The translations under genes and the position numbers were made by a program. DNA of 64,000 nucleotides, taken from the NCBI RefSeq assembly GCF_900699785.1, contig NZ_LR535679.1, positions 682,001 to 746,000 of the forward strand, given 5' to 3'. Each line of letters begins with the position of its first letter. The stretch's first letter is position 1. The notes under the pieces are model-generated. The model saw only the letters and a list, made by a program, of their open reading frames with translations, was not told the origin of the DNA and searched no databases. Shown piece by piece: positions 18,420-32,002 of this stretch. The DNA comes from Campylobacter showae (lineage in GTDB: Bacteria; Campylobacterota; Campylobacteria; Campylobacterales; Campylobacteraceae).

Positions 18420-19619
18420 TTATGCCAGAATCTTAGAAACAACGCCTGAACCGACCGTTCTGCCGCCTTCGCGGATCGCAAAGCGAGTTCCCTCTTCAAG
18501 AGCAACTGGCGCAATAAGCTCAACAGTTATCTTTAGGTTATCACCAGGCATAACCATCTCTGTTCCTTCTGGAAGAGTGATAGAACCTGTAACATCAGTC
18601 GTTCTTACATAGAATTGCGGTCTATAGTTATTAAAGAATGGAGTGTGGCGTCCACCTTCTTCTTTTGTTAAAATATAAACTTCGCCCTCAAATTTAGTGT
18701 GAGGAGTAATTGATTTAGGTTTGCAAAGAACCATACCGCGCTCAACATCTTCTTTTTTTGTGCCTCTTAGAAGAACGCCTACGTTATCGCCTGCTTCACC
18801 TTGGTCCATTTCTTTTCTAAACATCTCGACGCCGGTAACTGTAGTAGTTTGAGTTGGTCTAATACCTACGATTTCGATGGTATCGCCGACTTTTACCACA
18901 CCTTTTTCAATTCTACCGGTAACAACCGTACCGCGACCAGAAATAGAGAAAACGTCCTCAATAGGCATCAAGAAATCTTTATCTGTTGCGCGTACTGGAG
19001 TTGGAATATACTCATCAACTCTAGCCATAAGCTCAAGAACCTTTGCAGACCATTCGCCGTCTGTTCCAGCCTTAGCCTCATTAAGAGCTTGTAGAGCCGA
19101 GCCTGCTACGATTGGAGTATCGTCACCAGGGAAGTCGTACTCGTTTAGAAGCTCGCGAATTTCCATCTCAACTAGTTCAAGAAGCTCAGCATCGTCAACC
19201 ATATCAGCTTTGTTCATGAAAACAACGATATATGGAACGCCTACTTGGCGAGATAGCAAGATGTGCTCTCTGGTTTGAGGCATTGGGCCGTCAGCAGCAG
19301 AAACAACTAGGATAGCACCGTCCATTTGAGCCGCACCGGTAATCATGTTTTTAACATAGTCGGCGTGGCCTGGGCAGTCAACGTGAGCATAGTGGCGATT
19401 TTCAGTCTCGTACTCGATGTGAGAAGTAGCGATGGTAATACCGCGCTCTTTTTCCTCTGGAGCGTTGTCGATATTATCATAGTCTTTTAACTCAGCAAGA
19501 CCTTTTCTTGAAAGAACAGCAGAAATTGCAGCTGTCAAAGTTGTTTTACCATGGTCAACGTGACCGATGGTACCGATGTTTACGTGTGGCTTGTTACGTG
19601 AAAATTTTTCTTTTGCCAT
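18420..19619 (-). CDS. tuf: Translation elongation factor Tu
   Basis: 399-aa GTPase delivering aminoacyl-tRNA to the ribosome. [19 protein letters not shown] and N-K-A-D-M motifs are all intact and the C-terminal beta-barrels are complete. First protein gene of the tuf-rpmG-trnW-secE-nusG series, downstream of a four-tRNA cluster. Confidence 0.98.
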
Positions 19620-19682
19620 CTCTTCCTCCGTAATGATATTTGCAATTCAAATTTATGCTTAATTTTACTTCTCTAAAATCCG

Positions 19683-19757
<75 letters not shown>

Positions 19758-19890
19758 GCTATAAACGCTTGGCGTTAGAGAATTTTTGAAAAGCATAAAC
19801 AACTAAATGAAATTAAAAAGGTGTGCCGTAGAAAATGTATAAAATTTAATATTTTTATCATCTTACAGCTCCCAGTTTAGTTCCAAAATC

Positions 19891-19967
19891 TGGAGCGGGA
19901 AACGGGGCTCGAACCCGCGACCCTCAGCTTGGAAGGCTGATGCTCTAGCCAACTGAGCTACTCCCGC
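19891..19967 (-). tRNA. tRNA-Gly (TCC anticodon)
   Basis: Acceptor GCGGGAG/TTCCCGC, anticodon stem TCAGC/GCTGA with loop CTTCCAA, T-loop GTTCGAGC, encoded CCA. Confidence 0.95.
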
Positions 19968-19975
19968 GCGTAGCA

Positions 19976-20060
<85 letters not shown>

Positions 20061-20117
20061 CTATTTTAAAAAATAAATGCTTTGCAATGGTATTTCTGGT
20101 CAAACACTGTTATGAAA

Positions 20118-20193
20118 TGGAGCTGGTGAACGGACTTGAACCGCCGACCCACTGCTTACAAGGCAGTAGCTCTACCAACTGAGCTACACCAGC
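20118..20193 (-). tRNA. tRNA-Thr (TGT anticodon)
   Basis: Acceptor GCTGGTG/CACCAGC, anticodon stem ACTGC/GCAGT with loop CTTGTAA, T-loop GTTCAAGT, encoded CCA. First of the Thr-Tyr-Gly-Thr-tuf series. Confidence 0.95.
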
Positions 20194-20257
20194 ATCCTGA
20201 TTTATGAAAGTTGGATTATAGCCCAATTTCTTTTCAAAGTCAAGGTTTTTAAGAAAA

Positions 20258-20866
20258 TTATTCCATTTTTTGCATCAATAAAATCAAATTTATCCTATCT
20301 TTCGCTCCTGTTTTTTCAAAAATAGTGCCTACATGCGCTTTTACCGTCCTTACGGTTATTTGTAAAATCTCAGCGATTTCTTGATTTGTTAGCCCTTTAT
20401 AGACCAGTTGTGCTATCTCTTTTTCCTTAGTTGTTAGCTTTTCTAGCAAATTTGACGAATTTGAAGGCAAAATTTCCTTTGTCATCATTTGTATCATGCT
20501 TTGGATAAATTCCGGATAGAGCCAAACCTCGCCTCTTTCGATCGCTTCGAGCGCATCTTGAAAATGCACCTCAAGCATACGCGCGTTTGCATAGCCCTTT
20601 GCACCAAGGTGCAAAAACTCTCTACCTTCGTTAAATTTAGGCTCATGAGAAAGTATCAAAATTTTAATACCCTCCACCGTACTCAAAAGCTCTCTTGCTT
20701 CTTTGTCGGCATCCCAAATATCCACGCAAACTACGTCGTAGTCTTTGCTGTAAGCAAGCTCTAAAAAAATATCTTTTTCCTGCGTCGCTGTTACCTCGCT
20801 CGCAGCCAACTTATCTTTTATCTCGTTTATTACGGCTACATTTCCTGAATATGCCAAAATTCTCAT
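20258..20866 (-). CDS. LuxR/NarL-type response regulator with degenerate receiver
   Basis: 202-aa DNA-binding regulator and last gene of the Lap-type operon, 10 bases after the membrane fusion gene. The C-terminal helix-turn-helix (about residues 140-200) is a clear GerE/LuxR domain: L-T-T-K-E-K-E-I-A-Q-L-V-Y-K-G-L-T-N-Q-E-I-A then T-V-R-T-V-K-A-H-V. The N-terminal 120 residues fold like a receiver: a V-C-V-D strand end could be the phosphoacceptor Asp, but the usual N-terminal acidic pair is missing (starts M-R-I-L-A-Y-S-G-N). No histidine kinase is adjacent. It may therefore work without classical phosphorylation. Likely controls the secretion/adhesin genes, by context only. Confidence 0.85.
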   Translation of the reverse strand: MRILAYSGNVAVINEIKDKLAASEVTATQEKDIFLELAYSKDYDVVCVDIWDADKEARELLSTVEGIKILILSHEPKFNEGREFLHLGAKGYANARMLEVHFQDALEAIERGEVWLYPEFIQSMIQMMTKEILPSNSSNLLEKLTTKEKEIAQLVYKGLTNQEIAEILQITVRTVKAHVGTIFEKTGAKDRINLILLMQKME

Positions 20867-20876
20867 ATCCGCGCTC

Positions 20877-22286
20877 CTATCGTTCTCTCAAAGCGTTTTG
20901 TTTAGCTTTTAATATCGGTTTTAATAAATAATCAAGCACCGTTTTCTTACCGGTTATAATGTCGGCGCTAGCTATCATGCCCACCTTGATGCGAAGCGGT
21001 CTATCTTCGCTTCCTAGGTAATTTTTTTCGGTCGTTATCCTGACTAGATAGTAGCTCTCGCCAGTTTTTTCGTTTGTTTCCGTATCGGCTGAGATTTGCG
21101 TCACTTCGCCCTCTAGTCCGCCGTATATCGCAAAGTCGTAAGCGGTAAGCTTAACCATCGCTTTTAGTCCTTGGCGCAAAAACGCCACGTCCGCAGGCTT
21201 TACCTTTACCTCGGCTATCAAGCTATCCTCGACGGGGACGATCTCGGCGATGTCCATGCCCGGCTTTATGACGCCAGAGACGGTATTTACCATCAGCTTG
21301 CTTACTATGCCGTCCACCGGCGAGCGCACGAGCGTCCTTTCTACTTTGTCGCTTAAATTTACCTGGCTTTCGTTTAGCCTAGAAATTTCAGCCGAAACTT
21401 CGTTAAATTCTTTCTTTGCGCTATTTTGAAAGGCAAGCTTGGCTTCGGTTATTTTATTTTCTACCTCTTTTATCGTAGACTGCACTCTAGGGATAGAGAG
21501 TTTCGCCGCGCTTAGCTCGCCCCTTAGATCGTTTACGCGCCTTTGGAGTTGCAAGTACTCAACCTCGCTCACAAGCCCTTTTCTAAATAACGGCTCGGTT
21601 ATCTGCTTCTCTTTTTGTAGTAGATTATAGCTGCTTTGAGTCTGGTCGATCTTGCTCTCAAGCTCCCTTAGCTCGCTTTGGCGCTGTTTTATTTGCTCCT
21701 CTAGGATGCCGATTTGCTCCCTTAGCCTTGCTTTGTTCGTATCGTAAAGACTCTTTTCAAATCCGACGAATCGGTCGTAGTCCTTATCTCCCGTCTCTTT
21801 CGCATCAAATTCCTCGTCGTTTGACTCGGCGTAAAGGCGCAAGTATTTTGCCTGAAGCTCGTTTAGTCTAAATTTGGACTCGCCGTAGACGCTAGAAAAG
21901 CTCTTGTCGTCGATTTTTAGCAAAATTTGATTTTTCTTTACTTCATCGCCCGCGCGAACGTAAATTTCCTCGATTATGCCGCCTTCCAAATTTTGTACGA
22001 TCTGATTTTTGCCCGACGGGATGATCTTGCCGTTGCCGCGCGTGATCTCGTCTATCTGCGCAAACGACGCCCAAACCACGAGCCAAAAAACGGTTATAGC
22101 AACGATGTATAAAATTTTCCTAGATCCCGACGGCGCCTTAGCCAACACCGCCTCCGATAGGCTTGACATAAAACGAAGATCGTTTGCGTCGTAGTTTTTA
22201 GACTGAATGATCTTTTTTATATTTTGAGTCGAAGCTTCTAAATTTTGCCCGATATTTTCTTGTATTTCTAAATTTTTCTTATCCAT
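20877..22286 (-). CDS. lapC: Type I secretion membrane fusion protein, HlyD/LapC family
   Basis: 469-aa periplasmic adaptor linking the inner-membrane ABC transporter to the TolC-like channel. One N-terminal membrane helix (about residues 62-80), a biotinyl-lipoyl-like half motif around G-N-G-K-I-I-P-S-G, a long coiled coil (about 140-310, many Glu/Gln/Lys/Leu), then the second half with V-R-S-P-V-D-G-I-V and a beta-barrel C-terminus. Same strand and 5 bases after the lapB-like gene. Symbol is by analogy with the Pseudomonas Lap system; related RTX adaptors look very similar. Confidence 0.9.
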   Translation of the reverse strand: MDKKNLEIQENIGQNLEASTQNIKKIIQSKNYDANDLRFMSSLSEAVLAKAPSGSRKILYIVAITVFWLVVWASFAQIDEITRGNGKIIPSGKNQIVQNLEGGIIEEIYVRAGDEVKKNQILLKIDDKSFSSVYGESKFRLNELQAKYLRLYAESNDEEFDAKETGDKDYDRFVGFEKSLYDTNKARLREQIGILEEQIKQRQSELRELESKIDQTQSSYNLLQKEKQITEPLFRKGLVSEVEYLQLQRRVNDLRGELSAAKLSIPRVQSTIKEVENKITEAKLAFQNSAKKEFNEVSAEISRLNESQVNLSDKVERTLVRSPVDGIVSKLMVNTVSGVIKPGMDIAEIVPVEDSLIAEVKVKPADVAFLRQGLKAMVKLTAYDFAIYGGLEGEVTQISADTETNEKTGESYYLVRITTEKNYLGSEDRPLRIKVGMIASADIITGKKTVLDYLLKPILKAKQNALRER

Positions 22287-22291
22287 GCTCG

Positions 22292-24421
22292 CTACTTTCC
22301 GCCAAGCTTAGCTAAAATTTCATCTCTCGGCCCGTCTAGCAGTATCTTGCCGTTATCGACGACGATGAGTCTATCTACTAGCTCGAGCAGAGACGTTTTG
22401 TGCGTTATAAGCAGCATAGTTTTATCTTTCGTGTTAAATTTGAGATTGTTTTTTAGCTTATTTTCCACGCTGCTATCAAGAGAATTGGTCGGCTCGTCGA
22501 GCAATATAATCGGACTATCTAACAAAAAGGCGCGCGCTACGGCGATAGCTTGGCGCTGTCCGCCGCTTATACCCTCGCCGCGCTCATGCACCGGCATATC
22601 AAAGCCTAGCGGATGCGCGTCTACGTATTCGTCTACGCCGCTAACCTTTGCCGCGCGTATAATCTGCATATCATCGACGTGCGGGGCTTTGTAGACGATG
22701 TTGCCTCTTACCGTGCCTTTAAACAAAACCACGTCTTGCGGGACGTAGCCGATATTTCGGCGCAAGTCGGCCGGGTCGATTTGATTTATATCGATGCCGT
22801 CTATCAGGATCGAGCCCTCAGTCGGCGAATAAAGTCCCAAAATAAGCTTTTCAATAGTGGTTTTCCCAGAGCCGTTTCTGCCGATGATGCCCACCTTTTC
22901 GCCTGCGTTTATAGTAAAATTTACCCTATCTAGCGAGGCTTTGGTGCTTTCCGGATAGGTAAAGCATACGTTTTTAAACTCGATCTTGCCGTTAAAGGTA
23001 TTTCGGCGAACGAATTTTTTACCCTCTGGACGCTCGACAGGCATCTCCATTATCTTTTTTAGGCTCTCGTAGGCGGTTTTCGTCTGTTCGTAGTTTGCCA
23101 GCAGGCTCGCAAACTGCCCCATAGGAGCGATAGCGCGCGAGCTAAGCATCACGGCCGCGATGAGTCCGCCCATCGTGAGCTTGGTGTCTTGTATCATATA
23201 TACACCAAAGACGATGATGCCGACCGTATTTAACTGCACGAAAAACGACGTAACCGTATTTATCGACGCCGAGATCAGCTTTGATTTTATGCTTTTATTT
23301 GCTATCTCGCCGGTAGCCTCTTCCCAGTTCCACTGTACGTTTCCGGTCGCGCCCATGGTTTTTATCGTCTCAAGACCGTTTAGCGTCTCGATCAAAATTC
23401 CGTTTTTCTTCGCGCTAGCCTCAAAAGTACTTTTTATGCTGGTTTGGAGCGGATTTTTGATAAAAAGCGTGTAGCAAAGCACGGCTGCCATAAAAAACAG
23501 CGGCACGACTACCAAGTAGCTCGCGATAAAATAAGTAATCAGCAAAAACAGAATCGCAAACGGAAGGTCGATGAGAACAGCCAAAGTGCTTGAAGTGAAA
23601 AAATTTCTAACCGTGTCAAATTCGCGCAGGTTATTAGCAAACGAGCCAACCGATTTTGGCTTAACGGAGAGCTTTATATCCATCACGCGCTCAAAAAGCA
23701 ACGAGCTCATGATGATGTCGCTTTTCTTGCCCGCGACGTCTAGAAAATACGTGCGTATAAATTTTAAAAACAGATCGATAAGATAAACCACGCCCACGCC
23801 AAGAGCTAGTACCCAAAGCGTCTCTACGGCGTTATTTGGTACGACTCGGTCGTAAACGTTCATCGTAAAAAGCGGGCTGGCTAAAACAAACAAATTTATC
23901 ACTATACTAGCTACGATAACGTCGATGTAAATTTTCCTCGAGCGCTTTAGCGTACCCCAAAACCAGTGGCTAGTTTTGGTGTCTATCAAATTTGGCTTAT
24001 TATCCTCGGGGATAAATTCGCGCTTTAGCAGGTAGCTATAGCCCAGATACTCCTCTTTTAGCTTTTCGATTTCTATCAAATTTGAGCCGTTTGGCATATC
24101 GGGAGTTATGATTTTAGCGTGCGTTTTGCCCTCAAAACTCTCTAATATACAAGCCTTTTTCCCGCGTAAAAGCAGGATACAAGGCAGCACCAAGGGCGAG
24201 ATATCCTCGACTCGTTTATTTACCAAACTTGAAACAAACCCTGCCCTAGCCGCCGCTCTGGTAAAAAGAGATTTCGAGCCGCTAAGCGAAAAAAGCTCGA
24301 TATCTTCGTTTTCGTTAGTCGGTAGCCCGGCCACTAGCGCATCGGCGGTATATGGGTTGTTGTGCAGCTTGGTAAATATCACCAAACAATCAAGCAGTTC
24401 GTCGTTTTTCTTTTCTTGCAT
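22292..24421 (-). CDS. lapB: Type I secretion ABC transporter, LapB family
   Basis: 709-aa inner-membrane exporter for a large adhesin. The first ~130 residues are a C39-like domain without the catalytic cysteine (non-cleaving, substrate-holding form typical for RTX exporters). Residues ~165-430 form the membrane domain. The ATPase has Walker A (G-R-N-G-S-G-K-T-T), signature S-G-G-Q-R-Q and Walker B (I-I-L-L-D-E-P-T). Three bases separate it from the lapD-like gene. Its best substrate candidate here is the repeat protein at 61.9-64 kb. Confidence 0.92.
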   Translation of the reverse strand: MQEKKNDELLDCLVIFTKLHNNPYTADALVAGLPTNENEDIELFSLSGSKSLFTRAAARAGFVSSLVNKRVEDISPLVLPCILLLRGKKACILESFEGKTHAKIITPDMPNGSNLIEIEKLKEEYLGYSYLLKREFIPEDNKPNLIDTKTSHWFWGTLKRSRKIYIDVIVASIVINLFVLASPLFTMNVYDRVVPNNAVETLWVLALGVGVVYLIDLFLKFIRTYFLDVAGKKSDIIMSSLLFERVMDIKLSVKPKSVGSFANNLREFDTVRNFFTSSTLAVLIDLPFAILFLLITYFIASYLVVVPLFFMAAVLCYTLFIKNPLQTSIKSTFEASAKKNGILIETLNGLETIKTMGATGNVQWNWEEATGEIANKSIKSKLISASINTVTSFFVQLNTVGIIVFGVYMIQDTKLTMGGLIAAVMLSSRAIAPMGQFASLLANYEQTKTAYESLKKIMEMPVERPEGKKFVRRNTFNGKIEFKNVCFTYPESTKASLDRVNFTINAGEKVGIIGRNGSGKTTIEKLILGLYSPTEGSILIDGIDINQIDPADLRRNIGYVPQDVVLFKGTVRGNIVYKAPHVDDMQIIRAAKVSGVDEYVDAHPLGFDMPVHERGEGISGGQRQAIAVARAFLLDSPIILLDEPTNSLDSSVENKLKNNLKFNTKDKTMLLITHKTSLLELVDRLIVVDNGKILLDGPRDEILAKLGGK

Positions 24422-24424
24422 TTT

Positions 24425-26356
24425 TTATCCGATATTTTCTATTTGAGATATGAAAATTCCCTGCAAATAGTCGATTTCTAGGGTATGCAGTCTCTTTTCT
24501 TGCTCTTCGTTTTCTACGCCCATAGCTATGATTTTTACGCCCTTGCTTCTCATCATCGCTTCAAACGAGCTTCTTTGCTCCGACGTTCTCTCACCCAAAA
24601 AGTCTATCAAATTTGCCACCGGGATTTTGACGTAATCAGGGCTAACGGCATTGAGCCTTTCGATACTTTTCGCGTCAAATCCGAAGTGATCTAGTCCAAA
24701 GCCAAAACCGAGCGCGCGCAATCTCTGGTGAAGTCCGTCAAGAACCGCCACGTCTATGTCGTCTTTGTTCGGGATCTCGATAAAAATTTTAGCAGGCGCA
24801 TATCGTCTTATCTTTTTGAGCGCATTTTCAAGCTCGGTAAAGTGCTGAGTAGAGTTTAAGATATCCTTGCCCAAATTTAGCGCATATTGCATAGTTTTAA
24901 GCTTGCCGTCTCTTAGCATATCGGCAAATTTGTTTAAAACGTAAAGGTCGATATCCACCGCCATCTTTAGCTCGTTTACCATCGGCATAAAGTAGCTCGC
25001 CGTCTGCCATCTACCCTCGCCGTCGACGAGTCTGATAAACAGCTCGCAGTGCGCTATTTCAGCAAAATTTGACGCCACTTTTTGTCCCGCAAATTTAAAC
25101 ATACCGTTTTTAAGAGAGGTTTCGATGAGCTCTTTATACTCCTCTTTTCCTAGCATGATCTCTTTGTCGCTCTTATAGATCAGGGAGGAGAAATTTGAGC
25201 CCTCTTTAGCTCTTGCTAGCGTGATGTCGGCCGTTATGAGCACGTCTTTTAGCGGAGTTTTCGGTCCGTAAGGCACGATCGCGGCAAAGACCGGGTGCTT
25301 GTCCATATCTACGTTAAATTTGATAAATTCTTCTTGTATCGTTAGTAAAATTTTATCGGTTATGGCTTTGACGTTTTGCGTCGTTAAATTTGCGGCTACG
25401 ATCATAAAGTCATCGTCGTTTAGCCTAGCTCGCAGCATACCTATGGCATTTTGGGATATTACTGACGCGATAGTTTTTATAAGCTTTTGCTGCGCGTTAA
25501 AGCCGATCTCTTGTTTTAGATCTCGCAAATCTTTGCAAGTTATCATCGATGCGGCGCCGCTTGAATACTCCTCGCTCGAGATATAATCTTTAAAGTTATT
25601 TTGTAAATACCTTCTGTTAAAAAGTACGGTTTCTTCGTCTTTATAAAGTAGCTCTTCGTATTTGCTTAGCGTCTTGGCGCTTTGCTCAAACACGTCCTTA
25701 ACGCGCGTTATCATCACGTTCATCGCAAGGACGACCTGCCTAATATCTAGCGTAAAAGGAATTTTTTCCTGTAAAATAAAACTGTTTTGCAGTATGGCCT
25801 CGGCTTGCTTTTGAACCTTTTTGAGCGGGATAAAAATTATCTTTACGCCAAAATAACTAATAAGCAGAGCCGATAGCGACATCACGAAAAGCACGAAAAA
25901 TACCTTTTTAACTATGTTGTAAAGCTCGTAATAAGCGATACCGGTGTTGCTTTGTACGTAAATAGTGCCGAATTTACTCCAGCCGAGCATTATCTCGCTT
26001 TGCGCCACCGGAGCTTCTAGTTTTACGTTTTTTACGAACCACTCGGGAACGCTATTTACCACTAGAGGCTGCGAGTTTTCTATCAGCGTCTCGCCATCTA
26101 CTCCGGCTAGCTTTATCATCGAGTAGTATCCGCTGTCAAATACCGAATTTATCATCGTTTCAATGCCGGATAAATCATTTGGATTTGCTACCGACGCTAT
26201 GGCAAGACCTAGCGAATTTGCCGTATGCTTGGCGTTAGTGCCTAGCTGAGCGGAGATATAGTCGTTCGTCGTCGTAAAATTTAAAATCCCGACGGCTACG
26301 AAAATAACCAACATAAAGGAAATTATCGCCAGCATTATTTGTTTTAAAAGCGTCAT
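24425..26356 (-). CDS. lapD: LapD-like c-di-GMP receptor (periplasmic sensor, HAMP, degenerate GGDEF and EAL)
   Basis: 643-aa transmembrane receptor predicted to sequester the periplasmic protease when c-di-GMP is bound. An N-terminal helix (about 8-28), a periplasmic LapD/MoxY-type domain (about 30-150) with the late W-x-x-x-G-x-I-x-V and A-Y-Y-E-L-Y pattern, a second helix, HAMP, then GGDEF and EAL domains. The GGDEF motif is replaced by N-D-D-D-F, and the EAL domain lacks E-A-L (C-E-L-F-I-R-L instead) and has D-H-F-G-F-D for D-D-F-G-T-G. Neither diguanylate cyclase nor phosphodiesterase activity is expected, matching a pure receptor. The stop of the protease gene and this start abut directly. 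Confidence 0.88.
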   Translation of the reverse strand: MTLLKQIMLAIISFMLVIFVAVGILNFTTTNDYISAQLGTNAKHTANSLGLAIASVANPNDLSGIETMINSVFDSGYYSMIKLAGVDGETLIENSQPLVVNSVPEWFVKNVKLEAPVAQSEIMLGWSKFGTIYVQSNTGIAYYELYNIVKKVFFVLFVMSLSALLISYFGVKIIFIPLKKVQKQAEAILQNSFILQEKIPFTLDIRQVVLAMNVMITRVKDVFEQSAKTLSKYEELLYKDEETVLFNRRYLQNNFKDYISSEEYSSGAASMITCKDLRDLKQEIGFNAQQKLIKTIASVISQNAIGMLRARLNDDDFMIVAANLTTQNVKAITDKILLTIQEEFIKFNVDMDKHPVFAAIVPYGPKTPLKDVLITADITLARAKEGSNFSSLIYKSDKEIMLGKEEYKELIETSLKNGMFKFAGQKVASNFAEIAHCELFIRLVDGEGRWQTASYFMPMVNELKMAVDIDLYVLNKFADMLRDGKLKTMQYALNLGKDILNSTQHFTELENALKKIRRYAPAKIFIEIPNKDDIDVAVLDGLHQRLRALGFGFGLDHFGFDAKSIERLNAVSPDYVKIPVANLIDFLGERTSEQRSSFEAMMRSKGVKIIAMGVENEEQEKRLHTLEIDYLQGIFISQIENIG

Positions 26357-27022
26357 CTATCCGTCCTCTTTCATTCTGTCGACTAAATTTAGCCATTTTG
26401 GATTTTGTTTTTTGTTTCCGCCGGGGATGGCCTGCCCCAAGCCTTCTTGTTTTGATAAAAATAGCGAATCGCCGTTAAAACTATAAACGGGCGCTAAGTC
26501 TTTTCTTTGCGTAGCTATTTTGATGTTTGGGTTGATATTGTCTAAAACTAGCGGTATGGACTTTGGGCTATCATAATAAGATAAAACCATGTGCGCTTGG
26601 TTGTAATCAAGCGCTTTTACGTAAGTGAAATAAAGCTTTTGCGTGGAAACGCCGAGCTGCTTTAGGGTGAAGTACTTCGCCGTAACGAAATCCTCGCAAT
26701 CCCCGGCGCCCTTGCCCAAAAACTCCATTCTCGTAGCCCAGTAGTCCTTTTGCCCCCAAACTTCCCTGTCGTCTTTCCACTGTAAGCGGTTAAAAAAATC
26801 ATTTACTTTTACGAGTTTTTCTTGCTCCGTGGCATCCTTTAAGCTCACCATGAGCTCGTTTAAGGCAACCACTCTTTTTTTGGCGTTTTGGCCGTAAACT
26901 TTAGCGATCTTGTCGTAGGTGGAGGCTTTTATAAACTCGCCTCCCGCAAAAATCGCGAACACAAAAAGGGCGCTCGCTAAAAACGCCCTCCTGTATTTGC
27001 CCGCGCTTATGCCAAATTTCAT
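26357..27022 (-). CDS. lapG: LapG-like periplasmic transglutaminase-type cysteine protease
   Basis: 221-aa protease that in the Pseudomonas Lap system cuts the N-terminal retention domain of the adhesin and releases it from the cell. An N-terminal membrane/signal helix (about 11-28) gives export. The catalytic triad is visible: Cys109 in G-D-C-E-D, His144 in Q-A-H-M-V-L, Asp161 in L-V-L-D-N, with the spacing of bacterial transglutaminase-like cysteine peptidases. The acidic residues flanking Cys109 fit the known Ca-binding site of LapG. It lies between the TolC-like gene and lapD. Confidence 0.9.
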   Translation of the reverse strand: MKFGISAGKYRRAFLASALFVFAIFAGGEFIKASTYDKIAKVYGQNAKKRVVALNELMVSLKDATEQEKLVKVNDFFNRLQWKDDREVWGQKDYWATRMEFLGKGAGDCEDFVTAKYFTLKQLGVSTQKLYFTYVKALDYNQAHMVLSYYDSPKSIPLVLDNINPNIKIATQRKDLAPVYSFNGDSLFLSKQEGLGQAIPGGNKKQNPKWLNLVDRMKEDG

Positions 27023-27049
27023 AAAATTTATCTAAATTTTAGTCTAAGA

Positions 27050-28792
27050 CTATCTTAGGTCCTCGGCTATCGAGCACGCGCCTTGGATATATTTTTTAGC
27101 AAATCCAGGCTCAAAGCTATCGGTAATCATGCCCATATTATCAAGAAGCCTAAATTTAGCATATAAAAGCTCTTTTTGAGTATTTACGATCTCAACCAAA
27201 GCGTTGTTGTATTCGCTCTCGGCATCAAGCAAATTTATAAGATCGCGTCTGCCGATCCTAAACTCGTCCCTATACGCATCAAGCGTCTCTTTTGCGTATT
27301 TAACGTGCTCGTTTAGATACTCGAGTCTTTTTTGATTTAGCACGTAAGTCTGCCATGAAAATTTAAGACTCTCCGAAAGCTCTCTTTTTACCCTCTCAAG
27401 CCCGTGAGACGACTCGGTAACGGCTAGAACGGCTTTTTCTTTCTCTAGCTTATCTGAGTTTTTGTTGTAAAGATTATATTTTAGTCTTAGCAAAACGTCG
27501 TAAGAGGTATCTTTATAATCGTCGTAAAATACATCGTTTCTCTCGTGATTTGCGCTGGCTTCAAGATCCACCTTCGGTCTAAAAGCAGCGTTTTTCTCAT
27601 TAACGACCGATTGATTCATTTTTATGTTTGCATCTTGCAAAAGAACGCTCGGGTTACATTTCATAGCGATGTTATATACCGCGCTTTCGCTTCCCGGTAG
27701 CGGCAACTCAAAGCTTGGAGCGACCAAATTTTCCGCCGCGATTCCTTTGCCGTAAAGTTTCTCAAAGGTGCTTAGAGCGTCGTTATAGTTATTTTCGCGA
27801 GAGATCAAATTTGCCTGAGCTAGCGTAAGGCGAGAACCGGCCTGTCTCTCCTCGGAGCCTCTAGCAAAGCCCGAGCTTGTTCTATCTTTGATTTGAGAGT
27901 AAATTTCCTCGTGAGTTTTTACGTTTGATTGTGCGATCTCTAGCAACTCTTTAGTTTGAAGCACGGTGATGTATGCGTTTGCAAACTCAAGCGTAAGTCT
28001 GTCGGCTTTTTGCGCTACGCTATAAGCGGCCGCATCCATCCTGTGGCTTTGAGAGATCATTCTGTTTTTATCGGCTCCGCCGTTGTATAAATTTTCCGTT
28101 AGCGTCGCGTTTGCCGTAAGCCTTTTGCCGCTACCTTTTTGTACGGTTATGCCGTTATCTATTTTTTCTTTTCTGTAGCCGTAAGTTCCGCCGATATCAA
28201 ATGTCGGATAGTAGGCGTTATTGGCGATATTTAGGTCTTTTCCGACTTGCATATAGGCATATTCGGTCTCTTTTAGACCCGGGTTTTCAAGAAGTAAATT
28301 TTTAACCGCCGTGTTTAGGCTCACTTGACCGCTCTCTTGCGCGCCGTTTTCAAGGTAGGCAGCTCCCATCGGTTCCGGCGCTTCTTTAAACGTCAAATCT
28401 TGTTTTTTTCTTAGGCCAGGCTTTGGAGCTTTAGCGGCATCTTTGCTTTCGCCAAAATTTTGCGTTTCATCGCCTGAAGAAACAGAGTCTTTAGCAACTG
28501 CGCTATAAGCGTCTACGTATCCTGCTGCCTTGATTTTAGCCGTTAAATTTTTAATGCTGTCTTTATCTAAAGACTTGGTTTTAACGGCTACGGCACGGTA
28601 TTTACCGAAAGTTCCGCTTACTACTTTTTCCACTCCGTCAAAGTCACCTACCTTGCGCTCTACGCTAGCTCTGGCACTCTCTATCGCTTCTTCTTTTACG
28701 TCGTCGCCGAAGCTGCTCACAAATACGTTATATTCGTCATTTGCGAACAACAAACCGCAAACTAAAAAGCTAATCGCTGCTGCTTTTCTCAT
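27050..28792 (-). CDS. lapE: TolC-family outer membrane channel (LapE-like) with N-terminal SPOR-like domain
   Basis: 580-aa outer-membrane efflux channel, first gene of the Lap operon. Signal peptide at residues 1-17 ends at L-L-F-A-N. Residues ~20-100 (Y-N-V-F-V-S-S-F-G then G-T-F-G-K-Y-R-A-V-A-V-K and I-K-A-A-G-Y-V-D-A-Y) resemble a SPOR peptidoglycan-binding fold, which ordinary TolC proteins lack. A linker follows, and the TolC core covers ~160-570 with V-S-L-N-T-A-V, D-L-N-I-A-N-N-A-Y-Y-P-T, two coiled-coil halves and the final R-R-D-L-I-N-L-L-D-A-E segment. The SPOR assignment is inferred from pattern. Confidence 0.88.
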   Translation of the reverse strand: MRKAAAISFLVCGLLFANDEYNVFVSSFGDDVKEEAIESARASVERKVGDFDGVEKVVSGTFGKYRAVAVKTKSLDKDSIKNLTAKIKAAGYVDAYSAVAKDSVSSGDETQNFGESKDAAKAPKPGLRKKQDLTFKEAPEPMGAAYLENGAQESGQVSLNTAVKNLLLENPGLKETEYAYMQVGKDLNIANNAYYPTFDIGGTYGYRKEKIDNGITVQKGSGKRLTANATLTENLYNGGADKNRMISQSHRMDAAAYSVAQKADRLTLEFANAYITVLQTKELLEIAQSNVKTHEEIYSQIKDRTSSGFARGSEERQAGSRLTLAQANLISRENNYNDALSTFEKLYGKGIAAENLVAPSFELPLPGSESAVYNIAMKCNPSVLLQDANIKMNQSVVNEKNAAFRPKVDLEASANHERNDVFYDDYKDTSYDVLLRLKYNLYNKNSDKLEKEKAVLAVTESSHGLERVKRELSESLKFSWQTYVLNQKRLEYLNEHVKYAKETLDAYRDEFRIGRRDLINLLDAESEYNNALVEIVNTQKELLYAKFRLLDNMGMITDSFEPGFAKKYIQGACSIAEDLR

Positions 28793-28876
28793 AGAAATCC
28801 TTTGTAATTTATTTTAAATTAACGCTGATACATTAACCCGCGATTATATATTATAAAAAATAAAAAAGTTATAAAT

Positions 28877-30130
28877 TTACAAAAGCGCTTTTGCGATTAA
28901 CTCTATCGGGTTTTCGCATTTCACGTCTGAGCCGCCGATATGTAGCGCATTTGAAATTTGCATTTTACAGGCGCTACACTCTGCGCTTACGATTTTTGCG
29001 CCCGAGTTTTTTATCATCTCGGATTTTCTTTGTCCGGCTGCGCGGCTTAGATGATATTTTTCAGACTGCATCGTCACTCCGCCAAAACCGCAACACTCGT
29101 TTGGATCGCTCATTTCTGTTATTTCGTAGTTTTGAGCGAGCAGTTTGCGAGGCTCTTTAAAGACGCCTTGCATTTTTCTAGCGTGACAAGGGTCGTGATA
29201 GGTCACGGAGGCTAAATTTTTGCCTTTTTTAGCCAAAATTTCAGCCAAATTAGTAAATTTCTCAAAGTACTCCGTCGCTAAAAATATCTTCTTGCTCACC
29301 GCCTTTGCACGCTCTCGCCACTGCTCGTCATCGTGAAAGAAGTGCTCGTAGTCGATCTTTATCATCGCCGAACAGGTCGCCTCAGGCACGATGATAGCGT
29401 CTATCTCGCCCAGCATTTTTTCAAAATACTCGATATTTCGCTTTGCCAAGACCTCAACCGTCGCAAAATCTCCCGTAAAATACGCCGGTGCGCCGCAACA
29501 GGCCTGTTTTTTCATCAAATTTAAATTTAACCCAAGCTCACGCGCGATCTTAACCAGAGCCTCGCCGATGCCTGTATACGCGTAGTTTCCCATACAGCCG
29601 ATAAAAACGCCGATGGTTTTATCGCCGCCGTTATCGATAAACTCGGCGTGCGAGTTTAAAAAGCTCTTTTTGCTAGCAGTGGGCAAAAGCCGCTCTTTTT
29701 TCACCATCGGCAGGCTAAATCTCGGACTCATCGCGCCTTCGCGGATCTTAAACGCACAGCTTTGAAACACATATCCCAGCCTCGCACAAAAGTCCATCAC
29801 CGCGCGGTGGCGAAGCAACCAAAAAAACGCTTTTTTGTACCACGCGATACCAAATTTATCCGCGATATCGCGGCGGACGTTTTCTATCGCCGTATCCACG
29901 CGCAAGGAGTTTGGGCATACCTCGACGCAGTTGGTACATAAAAAACAGCTCTCAAAGATATTTTTCGCGCTTTTATCTAGCTTTAGCTCGCCGCGCTCGT
30001 AAGCTCCCACGAGATCCAAAAAGCCGCGCGGAGAGGTCGTTTCGTCGGAGTTTATCTTGTGGATCGTGCAGACTTGGATACATTTGCCACATTTTACGCA
30101 TTTATCTGAAATTTCGCTAAATTTAAACAT
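28877..30130 (-). CDS. Fe-S oxidoreductase with two 4Fe-4S and two CCG domains (GlpC/GlcF-type)
   Basis: 417 aa. N-terminal ferredoxin motifs C-V-K-C-G-K-C-I-Q-V-C and C-F-L-C-T-N-C-V-E-V-C (residues ~11-75), then two cysteine-rich CCG domains (C-C-G-A-P-A near 210 and C-C-G-F-G-G near 345). Such subunits pass electrons between a flavin dehydrogenase and the quinone pool or a heterodisulfide-type partner. No flavin subunit is adjacent. It is 9 bases downstream of hemN, the same pairing as in Campylobacter jejuni, so it may be co-transcribed with it. The donor is unknown. Confidence 0.85.
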   Translation of the reverse strand: MFKFSEISDKCVKCGKCIQVCTIHKINSDETTSPRGFLDLVGAYERGELKLDKSAKNIFESCFLCTNCVEVCPNSLRVDTAIENVRRDIADKFGIAWYKKAFFWLLRHRAVMDFCARLGYVFQSCAFKIREGAMSPRFSLPMVKKERLLPTASKKSFLNSHAEFIDNGGDKTIGVFIGCMGNYAYTGIGEALVKIARELGLNLNLMKKQACCGAPAYFTGDFATVEVLAKRNIEYFEKMLGEIDAIIVPEATCSAMIKIDYEHFFHDDEQWRERAKAVSKKIFLATEYFEKFTNLAEILAKKGKNLASVTYHDPCHARKMQGVFKEPRKLLAQNYEITEMSDPNECCGFGGVTMQSEKYHLSRAAGQRKSEMIKNSGAKIVSAECSACKMQISNALHIGGSDVKCENPIELIAKALL

Positions 30131-30139
30131 ATCCGCCCA

Positions 30140-31501
30140 TCAAACCGTTTTTGAAAATCGGCGTAAATTTTCCGGTATTTTTTTCAAATACGCGTCAAAG
30201 CACATCGCGATATTTCGGATGATTAGCGTGCCGGTCTCGTTTACGCTGATTTTTTCGGGCGTTACGGTTACGAATTCGCTCAAATTTTCAAGCTCGACCA
30301 AATCATCCTTAAAATACTCGAAAAATTTGATGTCAAATTTGGCCTCGACCGCCTTGATATCGAGCGCAAAGTTGCTCATCAGGCTCATTATCACGGCTTT
30401 TCTGATTAGATCGTCATCGTTTAGATATATGCCCTTGCAGTACGGCAAAACGCCGCTATCTAGGGCCTTTTCGTATTCGTCCATGTCCTTGAAATTTTGA
30501 GCGTAGTATCTTTGCCCCTCGCCGATGCTAGTTAGCCCGATGCCGATGAGATCGGCTCCGCCCTTAGTCGTGTAGCCTTGGAAATTTCGATGAAGCGTGC
30601 CGTTAGCAAGCGCGCCGAAAAGCTCGTCGCCAGGCTTTGCAAAGTGATCCATTCCGATCATTTTGTAGTCGTTTTTGATAAAAAACTCGGCCGTGTATTT
30701 TAAAATTTCAAGCTTGATTTTAGGGCTAGGCAGAGTCGCTTCGTCAAATTTGCGCATAGATTTTTTTATCCACGGCACGTGCGCGTAGTTAAACACCGCC
30801 AGGCGGTCGGGAGATAGCGTCAGAGCCTTATCCAGCGTCGCTTTAAAGCTCTCTAGCGTCTGATACGGCAGGCCGTAGATCAAGTCCATATTTATCGAGT
30901 TTATGCCCTTAGCGCGCGCTATATCTACGGCGTTTTTGGTGATCTCGTAGGGCTGGATGCGGTGGATCTCTTTTTGCACGCGCTCGTCAAAGTCCTGCAC
31001 GCCGTAGCTGATACGGTTAAAGCCGTGAGAAACCAGCACGTCAAGCTGCTCACGAGTTAAAAATCTCGGATCGATTTCGCAGCTGTTTTCAGCCTCGGGC
31101 GAGAAGTTTTTAAATTTACCTTTTATCATTTTTATGATTTCATCTAGCTGATCCGCGCCGTAAAACGTCGGGGTGCCGCCGCCAAAGTGCATTTGTAGCA
31201 CAGGCGCGCTCGTGTCGAGATTTGCCGCTAGCAGATCGAGCTCTTTTTGCAGATACTCCATATAGCGCGTTTTGCGATCCTCTTTGCTCGTATAGATCAC
31301 GTTGCAACCGCAAAAATAACAGGCACTGCGGCAAAACGGCAGGTGCAAATAAAGCGAAAGCGGGCGTGAGGCGTCGCGGTTTTTTAGCTCCCGCAGGTAG
31401 TCCTCGTAGCTAAATTTATCGCTAAACTCGGGCGCGGTCGGATAGCTCGTGTATCGCGGTCCCGGGCGCGAATACTTCACGTAAGCGTCAAAATCTATCA
31501 T
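30140..31501 (-). CDS. hemN: Oxygen-independent coproporphyrinogen III dehydrogenase
   Basis: 453-aa radical SAM enzyme making protoporphyrinogen IX for haem in the absence of oxygen. The cluster motif [10 protein letters not shown] (CxxxCxxC plus a further Cys) is near residue 56, with G-G-G-T-P-T and I-S-Y-G-V-Q-D-F later. Length and motifs match HemN rather than the HemW-like paralogues. Its start overlaps the UPF0763 stop by 4 bases. Confidence 0.95.
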
Positions 31502-31989
31502 AGCGTTTTATTCCTCGCATTTTTCATTATATTCTCCATATCGACGAACAAATTCGGATACTGCTTTTTGATACCCTTTACCAGTTTTTCCAAATTTACG
31601 TCTATGCTTTTTTTATTTTTATTTTTTGCGGCGATCTTACGTATCTCGTCCATCGCAACGACCCAAACGTCGGCGAAGTCTATCGGCACGTTTTGCCAGA
31701 TCGTCTTTTCAAGCCTTAGCTCGAAATTTTCTTTTTGGACGTTGCGGTAGGCTTCGATGAGCTGCGAGAGCGATTTTAACGAAACCATCGTGTGTAAATT
31801 TTGATTTTCGTCAATACCGAACCACGGCTCCACCCCGTCCCACGAGCCGCTTTTTAGGCTAAGGCTCATTTGACTCGGATCGCTTGTCGGCACGATCTCA
31901 AATATCGTTTTTTCGCCCTCTTTTATCCCGAGCTCGCCTGAGATTTCATCTATTTTTTCGTATGTTTTTTGTAGATTTTTTTCTTTCAT
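31498..31989 (-). CDS. UPF0763 (DUF2603) family protein
   Basis: 163-aa cytoplasmic protein of unknown function, conserved in Campylobacterota. It has no membrane segment and is charged and helical at both ends. Gene order argF-UPF0763-hemN is the same as in Campylobacter jejuni. I recognise the family from sequence and place; no function can be given. Confidence 0.85.
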
Positions 31990-32002
31990 TTACTTCCTTA
32001 AC

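Follow-up and report, generated by a model that had tools for sequence, protein, structure and literature searches.

What does a campylobacter do with a full set of lap genes, and why does a gene for a LuxR-type regulator close the operon? In Pseudomonas, LapD binds cyclic di-GMP (c-di-GMP) and keeps the protease LapG from the adhesin LapA. A first-pass annotation of a 64,000-nucleotide stretch of the Campylobacter showae genome (contig NZ_LR535679.1, positions 682,001 to 746,000; here referred to as the window) proposed that the same logic operates in an operon with the order tolC-lapG-lapD-lapB-lapC-luxR. We consider it likely that this operon encodes a complete Lap-type system for retaining adhesins, to which a dedicated transcriptional branch is joined. 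The case is built from gene content and key residues in the window. Related genomes add substrates that have cut sites, GGDEF domains that are intact, a palindrome whose position in the promoter is fixed, and the finding that these parts occur together.

The place, strand, and gaps first reported for the operon were all reproduced: six uninterrupted open reading frames (ORFs) run on the minus strand from position 28792 to position 20258, separated by 27, 0, 3, 5, and 10 bases (Table 1). All 16 same-genus genomes examined share this gene order, so the arrangement is not a product of chance; in these genomes, hemN lies on one side (16/16) and tuf on the other (15/16, with the 16th contig ending there). 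The type I exporter of a Lap system is represented by LapB and LapC with a TolC-like protein in the LapE role. LapG is a BTLCP protease that matches solved LapG structures (PDB 4u65, 4e-46; 4fgo, 5e-42), and its triad, Cys109/His144/Asp161, is exactly as first described. Together with the acidic residues D108 and E110 beside the cysteine, which by analogy may be the calcium residues, the triad is invariant in 17 aligned LapG-type proteins, including four paralogs located after luxR in some relatives. LapD combines a LapD_MoxY_N domain (1.2e-35) with GGDEF and EAL domains and matches solved LapD cytoplasmic and output domains, and its PxWF motif and GW loop (W126) are invariant in 12 aligned LapDs. 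The window LapD has a degenerate GGDEF motif (RLNDDDF), as do the 11 other aligned proteins. R442 of the EAL domain aligns with R450 of Pseudomonas fluorescens LapD, the arginine that contacts c-di-GMP, and the GW loop of that protein carries the LapG anchor W125 (PMC3032553; here and below, published systems are described from the available portions of the papers cited). We take LapD to be a c-di-GMP receptor.

Adhesins and GGDEF proteins were observed in genomes of relatives, outside the window. A LapA-type retention domain, which the first-pass annotation had suggested looking for, was detected above cut-off (NCBIfam retention_LapA, NF033682) in 16 of 16 same-genus genomes. We read 26 retention-module ORFs from 27 chosen profile matches (the L069 match was left out because it yielded no ORF). 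A [TAPS]AA[GA] motif occurs within the first 150 residues in 24 of the 26, and in 23 of the 24 ORFs from the genus the motif is LE[EA][TS]AAG at residues 99 to 130, the exception being a 189-residue protein. Adhesin genes of the relatives, that is, encode an N-terminal retention module with a [TAP]AAG-type cut site. In the genome nearest to the window (G001; 96.2% identity over 16.6 kb), two retention-module matches, one scoring under cut-off, lie ∼42 and ∼108 kb from lapG. A search for active GGDEF proteins, also suggested earlier, turned up intact diguanylate cyclase domains: 5 of the 10 GGDEF domains in G001 retain GGEEF/GGDEF. In the nearest relatives, neither a lack of diguanylate cyclases nor a lack of retention modules, two of the three results named in the annotation as refuting, was encountered. 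The key residues, the retention modules, and the intact GGDEF domains support the earlier proposal that the Pseudomonas logic may operate here.

On reading the DNA ahead of the adhesin genes, we recognized a palindrome, TTGTACNNNNGTACAA. With up to two mismatches, it precedes 23 of the 26 retention-module ORFs, compared with 8 of 338 control ORFs drawn from 16 lap loci and 19 adhesin loci (Fisher test, 1e-26, kinship ignored). In 22 of the 23 cases, the palindrome is followed at an offset of 23 or 24 bases by a −10 hexamer that matches at 5 or 6 of its 6 positions; at other offsets, no more than 4 positions match in any case. The palindrome center lies ∼31 bases ahead of the −10 box, a placement at which an activator would contact the −35 region. 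Across a family sample of 150 genomes, exact sites occur in 42, all within the window's genus and all LuxR-bearing, whereas a reversed control pattern occurs in one genome. G001 and C. showae CC57C (G154; 95.7% identity to the window over 12.6 kb, with LapG 100% identical) have only two sites each at up to one mismatch, all of them exact and ahead of the two retention-module genes of the respective genome, and the reversed control is absent from G154 at that tolerance. Two of the three such sites in G006 also precede retention-module genes. Among at least 75 exact sites listed, 37 have a retention-module match 66 to 88 bases downstream, by a hand-selected match list. Nine of the 38 other listed sites were inspected: five are ahead of retention-module-like proteins, and four represent one C. 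concisus-type site. The palindrome in the G013 locus is also ahead of a retention-module-like protein. In Campylobacterota outside the genus, the interval from luxR to the next ORF contains a site with up to one mismatch in 12 of 16 luxR loci, and in 8 of those 12 that ORF is a recognized retention-module gene. The same palindrome promoter was also observed before short proteins (170 to 189 residues) that look like a retention module by itself (L196, L197, L199, L201, L202, and L077 near 17103), and the one in L077 has no cut site.

The distribution of LuxR follows that of LapG. In the family sample, LapG occurs in 54 genomes (53 strong matches), the LapD domain in 53, and LuxR in 54 (52 strong); LuxR and LapG occur together in 51 of the 150, and LuxR accompanies LapG in 51 of 53. 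Retention modules exceed the cut-off in 48 genomes and are detected in 61 at an E value of 0.001. Three of the 48 genomes of the window's genus are without LapG. One, G160, is 68% complete and has LuxR and retention modules. In the other two, G129 and G133 (99% complete), LapG, LapD, LuxR, retention modules, and exact palindromes are all missing together. The GerE domain exceeds its cut-off in 52 genomes, which are the 52 with this LuxR, and LuxR is the sole such protein in 51 of them (G007 has a second, barely over); in G001, the LuxR ortholog is the only GerE-domain match. Beyond the sample, among the best 80 of 312 LapG loci (the named ones), luxR lies downstream of lapC in all 43 lapC-bearing loci; the distance is at most 664 bases in 41 of them and ∼2.1 to 2.3 kb in the other two. 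These loci span Campylobacterota and Gammaproteobacteria.

The annotation had called the LuxR receiver atypical, and comparison of 54 LuxR proteins, some near-identical, extends this to a conserved pseudo-receiver. An AlphaFold2 model has a receiver fold, a sixth helix, and a helix-turn-helix domain (mean pLDDT, 90.2; pTM, 0.62), and Foldseek searches with it returned VraR, LiaR, FixJ, and NarL at the top and VpsT at rank 15. The conserved acid pair after strand 1 is missing (position 9 is acidic in 9/54), acceptor position 49 is Asp in 19 proteins and His in 19, and Asn94 stands near the usual place of the lysine in 53. His101 is near-invariant, and Pro76, Tyr92, and Trp115 are invariant. Assignment to the phosphorylated NarL-family response regulators was rejected on the acid pair, acceptor Asp, and Lys taken together; by the definition in PMC12632262, this receiver is a pseudo-receiver. 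An alignment of LuxR proteins (A5) comprised 40 sequences, those of the window and 39 of the 43 named loci.

The reading that we favor runs as follows. Large adhesins would leave the cell through LapB, LapC, and TolC, with their N-terminal retention module remaining in the periplasm. At high c-di-GMP, the messenger would be bound by the EAL domain of LapD, and the periplasmic domain of LapD would hold LapG; when c-di-GMP falls, LapG would be freed, and its cut at LEETAAG would let the adhesin be shed. LuxR, with a receiver that appears non-phosphorylatable, would bind TTGTACNNNNGTACAA and activate adhesin genes scattered over the chromosome. LuxR would thus set adhesin transcription, while LapD and LapG would set retention of the protein. 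One set of substrates would thus have its export machinery, its release switch, and its transcription factor encoded together in a single operon.

Several observations weigh against this reading. The site is missing before 3 of the 26 retention-module ORFs, one of them outside the genus, and exact sites are missing from 4 of 46 LuxR-bearing genomes of the genus and from all 6 LuxR-bearing genomes of other family genera. At up to one mismatch, the reversed control has two sites in G001, as many as the palindrome itself. In G034 and G044, which belong to other genera, one-mismatch sites number 6 and 8 against 10 and 12 for the reversed control, and there is thus no excess; G043 has no such site and the LuxR-less G129 has one. 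In C. concisus-like genomes (assigned by kinship; L193, L194, L195, and L200), a conserved palindrome promoter lies ahead of small ORFs only. Gammaproteobacterial lap loci have TTGTACNNNNGTACAA within two mismatches in 1 of 19 cases. In the window, no palindrome was found ahead of tolC, which makes it probable that the operon is not under the control of the regulator that it encodes. Among LuxRs of the genus, 17 of 19 retain the phospho-acceptor Asp. LapG stays below the CystProtLapG cut-off of 320 bits, and LapD, at 300.7 bits, stays below the LapD equivalog cut-off of 1020. Weak, below-cut-off retention-module matches occur in eight LapG-less genomes outside the genus. Finally, the joint absences in G129 and G133 are possibly one loss event, and the counts are not independent because the compared genomes are related.

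Some of these points would suit an alternative in which the lap genes form a classical Pseudomonas-like system, luxR is a mere neighbor with another regulon, and the palindrome is bound by another factor. The tie between LuxR and the palindrome is one that we infer, and the site is absent before tolC, from gammaproteobacterial loci that retain luxR, and, in exact form, from LuxR-bearing genomes of the other family genera. However, LuxR follows LapG in both presence and loss, is almost always the sole GerE protein of its genome, and is present wherever exact palindromes occur, and outside the genus the stretch separating luxR from the following ORF has the site in 12 of 16 Campylobacterota loci. 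We therefore regard the neighbor explanation as unlikely. A core like TACGACTTTGGTATGA recurs by eye in gammaproteobacterial lap loci but is no better than in shuffles. The ORFs that follow the C. concisus-type palindrome include one of 51 amino acids (aa) in L200 and one of 116 aa, and no retention module was found in them.

What LuxR might sense is a further question. The c-di-GMP motif of VpsT-type regulators, which we take to be W[FLM][TS]R, was sought and rejected: the window has W115-L-Y-P, and position 118 is Pro in 46 of the 54 proteins, Gln in 7, and Val in 1. LuxR resembles VpsT in its NarL/FixJ fold, its pseudo-receiver, and the helix after the receiver, and W115 aligns with the Trp of the VpsT sequence W-L-T-R. 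Unlike in VpsT, the position of R134 (whose role is described in PMC3359988) is Pro118 here, the putative targets are type I adhesins, and the gene lies inside the lap operon. Because the Trp aligns but the Arg is replaced by Pro, LuxR was not counted as a VpsT-type protein. The switching of bacterial pseudo-receivers has been called a mystery (PMC12632262). It is conceivable, although we hold it to be quite unlikely, that the pseudo-receiver works as a switch by binding a ligand, perhaps c-di-GMP, which would sit where it does in VpsT but be held by another motif; one messenger would then set both adhesin transcription and adhesin retention via two receptors of one operon, across Campylobacterota and perhaps Gammaproteobacteria.

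A second alternative concerns LapD. The first-pass annotation had described both its GGDEF and EAL motifs as degenerate. This stands for GGDEF but only in part for EAL, and "both degenerate" is an overstatement because the EAL glutamate is retained. That Glu is kept in the 11 aligned LapDs of the genus; what has clearly been lost is the second Asp of the DDFG motif, which is His557 here (DHFG) and His in all 11, and the loop after DHFG is not DFGTG-like. Besides R442, the EAL domain keeps E438, N494, E527, D556, K577, E615, and Q632, most of the residues that make up what we presume to be the catalytic set of EAL domains (the DFGTG consensus is likewise presumed), which counts against a receptor-only role. 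P. fluorescens LapD differs in that its EAL motif is KVL (PMC3032553). The retained residues would fit a LapD that is also an active c-di-GMP phosphodiesterase, lowering c-di-GMP while reading it; with the substituted Asp and the altered loop, we judge this distinctly improbable. The linker at which LapD has a HAMP domain gave no HAMP match in the domain search. Another degenerate GGDEF protein, encoded by an open frame of 642 to 649 aa, occurs in G001, G154, and G006 (L178, L179, and L180), in G006 ∼7 kb from an adhesin gene. It was considered as a second LapD and rejected, since each of these genomes has just one LapD_MoxY_N match.

That the operon is a relic whose transport and regulator genes are no longer used is scarcely credible: the adhesin genes do lie outside the window, but all six ORFs are open, LapG is identical to that of C. 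showae CC57C, and retention modules exceed the cut-off throughout the 16 genus genomes.

The system is not special to this genome but the rule in its genus, where LapG occurs in 45 of 48 genomes. The 45 LapG-bearing genomes have 9 to 15 GGDEF domains each. The annotation's remark that c-di-GMP signaling is sparse in other campylobacters holds for g12 (1 to 4 per genome) and g15 (1 to 3) but fails for the LapG-less genera g13 (9 to 11) and g14 (0 to 13). Because g13 and g14 can be rich in GGDEF domains without LapG, GGDEF number alone does not track LapG.

Coordinates and profile matches for the six genes are collected in Table 1.

Table 1. Genes of the lap operon in the window, in order of transcription
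Gene and predicted product	Coordinates	Strand	Length	Supporting matches
tolC, TolC-family outer-membrane channel (LapE role)	27050..28792	-	580 aa	OEP 8.2e-43 (above Pfam cut-off); TIGR01844 208.6 bits (just below cut-off 225.15)
lapG, LapG periplasmic cysteine protease (BTLCP)	26357..27022	-	221 aa	Peptidase_C93; CystProtLapG 221.5 bits; PDB matches
lapD, LapD predicted inner-membrane c-di-GMP receptor	24425..26356	-	643 aa	LapD_MoxY_N + GGDEF + EAL
lapB, LapB type I secretion ABC transporter, LssB subfamily	22292..24421	-	709 aa	TIGR03375 (LssB) 941.5 bits (cut-off 693.1)
lapC, LapC HlyD-type adaptor	20877..22286	-	469 aa	TIGR01843 (HlyD) 398.1 bits (cut-off 208.65)
luxR, LuxR-type (NarL/FixJ fold) regulator with pseudo-receiver	20258..20866	-	202 aa	GerE

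TolC has an N-terminal extension of more than 120 residues ahead of the channel part in 24 of 25 loci of the genus, compared with at most 73 in other lap loci. In the window, it spans positions 28370 to 28792 (residues 1 to 141), with a predicted beta-alpha-beta-beta-alpha core at residues 22 to 89 (pLDDT, 74 to 86 by blocks over residues 21 to 90). Identification as a SPOR domain was rejected: Foldseek gave no match at an E value of 0.001, and Pfam gave only DUF3887 (E value, 0.029). The tolC frame is broken in G010 (L051:7877-9543).

Next to the operon in the window, a gene for an iron-sulfur-type protein and a hemN-like gene (both named by sight from their translations) lie on the tolC side, and four tRNA genes followed by tuf lie beyond luxR. 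In 14 of 16 genus loci, lapC and luxR are separated by a DUF5416-type gene (PF17437, tested on the L053 copy, L053:15601-16098), which is missing from G001, G006, C. showae CC57C, and the window. Eight of 16 genus genomes encode, after luxR, a second LapG-like protease with ∼30% identity to LapG and an intact triad in the four copies aligned (L053:16744-17370, L056:17074-17700, L057:16865-17497, L060:16615-17253, and equivalents); it is absent from the window, where luxR precedes the four tRNA genes. A perfect-arm palindrome inside luxR, TTGCACCAAGGTGCAA at positions 20599 to 20614, differs from the operator by two letters and was set aside as chance level: three palindromes with two mismatches occur in the window, 1.49 are expected, and 15 of 100 shuffles reach as many. 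Scans of positions 19500 to 32000 found no excess of promoters (15 versus 18.1 in shuffles) or terminators (18 versus 17.7).

The Lap half of the operon is of a known kind. It shares with the P. fluorescens system the LapD_MoxY_N-GGDEF-EAL order, the LapG triad with its flanking acids, the GW loop, PxWF, and the R450 equivalent (PMC3032553), as well as a type I exporter and a retention module with a TAAG cut site. It differs from that system in that the genus genomes inspected do not carry adhesin genes beside the exporter, LapD retains the EAL Glu, the cut site is LEETAAG without an upstream DP, and the operon ends with a LuxR-type gene. The Bpf system of Shewanella oneidensis (BpfA, BpfG, BpfD, and AggABC) likewise has a LapD/LapG-type switch and a type I exporter; it is a seven-gene cluster, and the available main text names no LuxR or transcriptional regulator (PMC4523816). 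The Dvh system of Desulfovibrio vulgaris (DvhG and DvhD) follows the same logic outside Gammaproteobacteria, with one protease serving two adhesins, but its receptor is an HD-GYP/dCache protein, whereas the receptor here has the LapD domain order (PMC13090378). CsgD, likened here without alignment, is also a LuxR-type biofilm regulator with an unusual receiver. FleQ and Fis are global regulators encoded away from the lap genes. Their control of Pseudomonas lapA, in the portions of the literature available, is likewise transcriptional control besides LapD/LapG; in contrast, the regulator here appears dedicated, with an operator mainly ahead of retention-module genes.

In the literature searched, which was mostly open access, we found no description of a c-di-GMP-controlled Lap system in campylobacters, nothing on LapG with LapD in epsilonproteobacteria, and no description of a pseudo-receiver LuxR with an operator before Lap substrates. 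No such luxR-type gene is named in the available portions of four Lap-type papers (PMC3032553, PMC4523816, PMC6890996, and PMC13090378), and the available part of a report on RTX and hemolysin-type proteins in C. showae does not name LapD (PMC6567213). It is the LuxR half, with its operator, for which we found no earlier description. Because the operator marks most Lap substrate genes, substrates should be recognizable from promoter sequence, and the operator before these genes would provide a ready reporter for the system. The operon also offers a pseudo-receiver regulator together with its likely target set.

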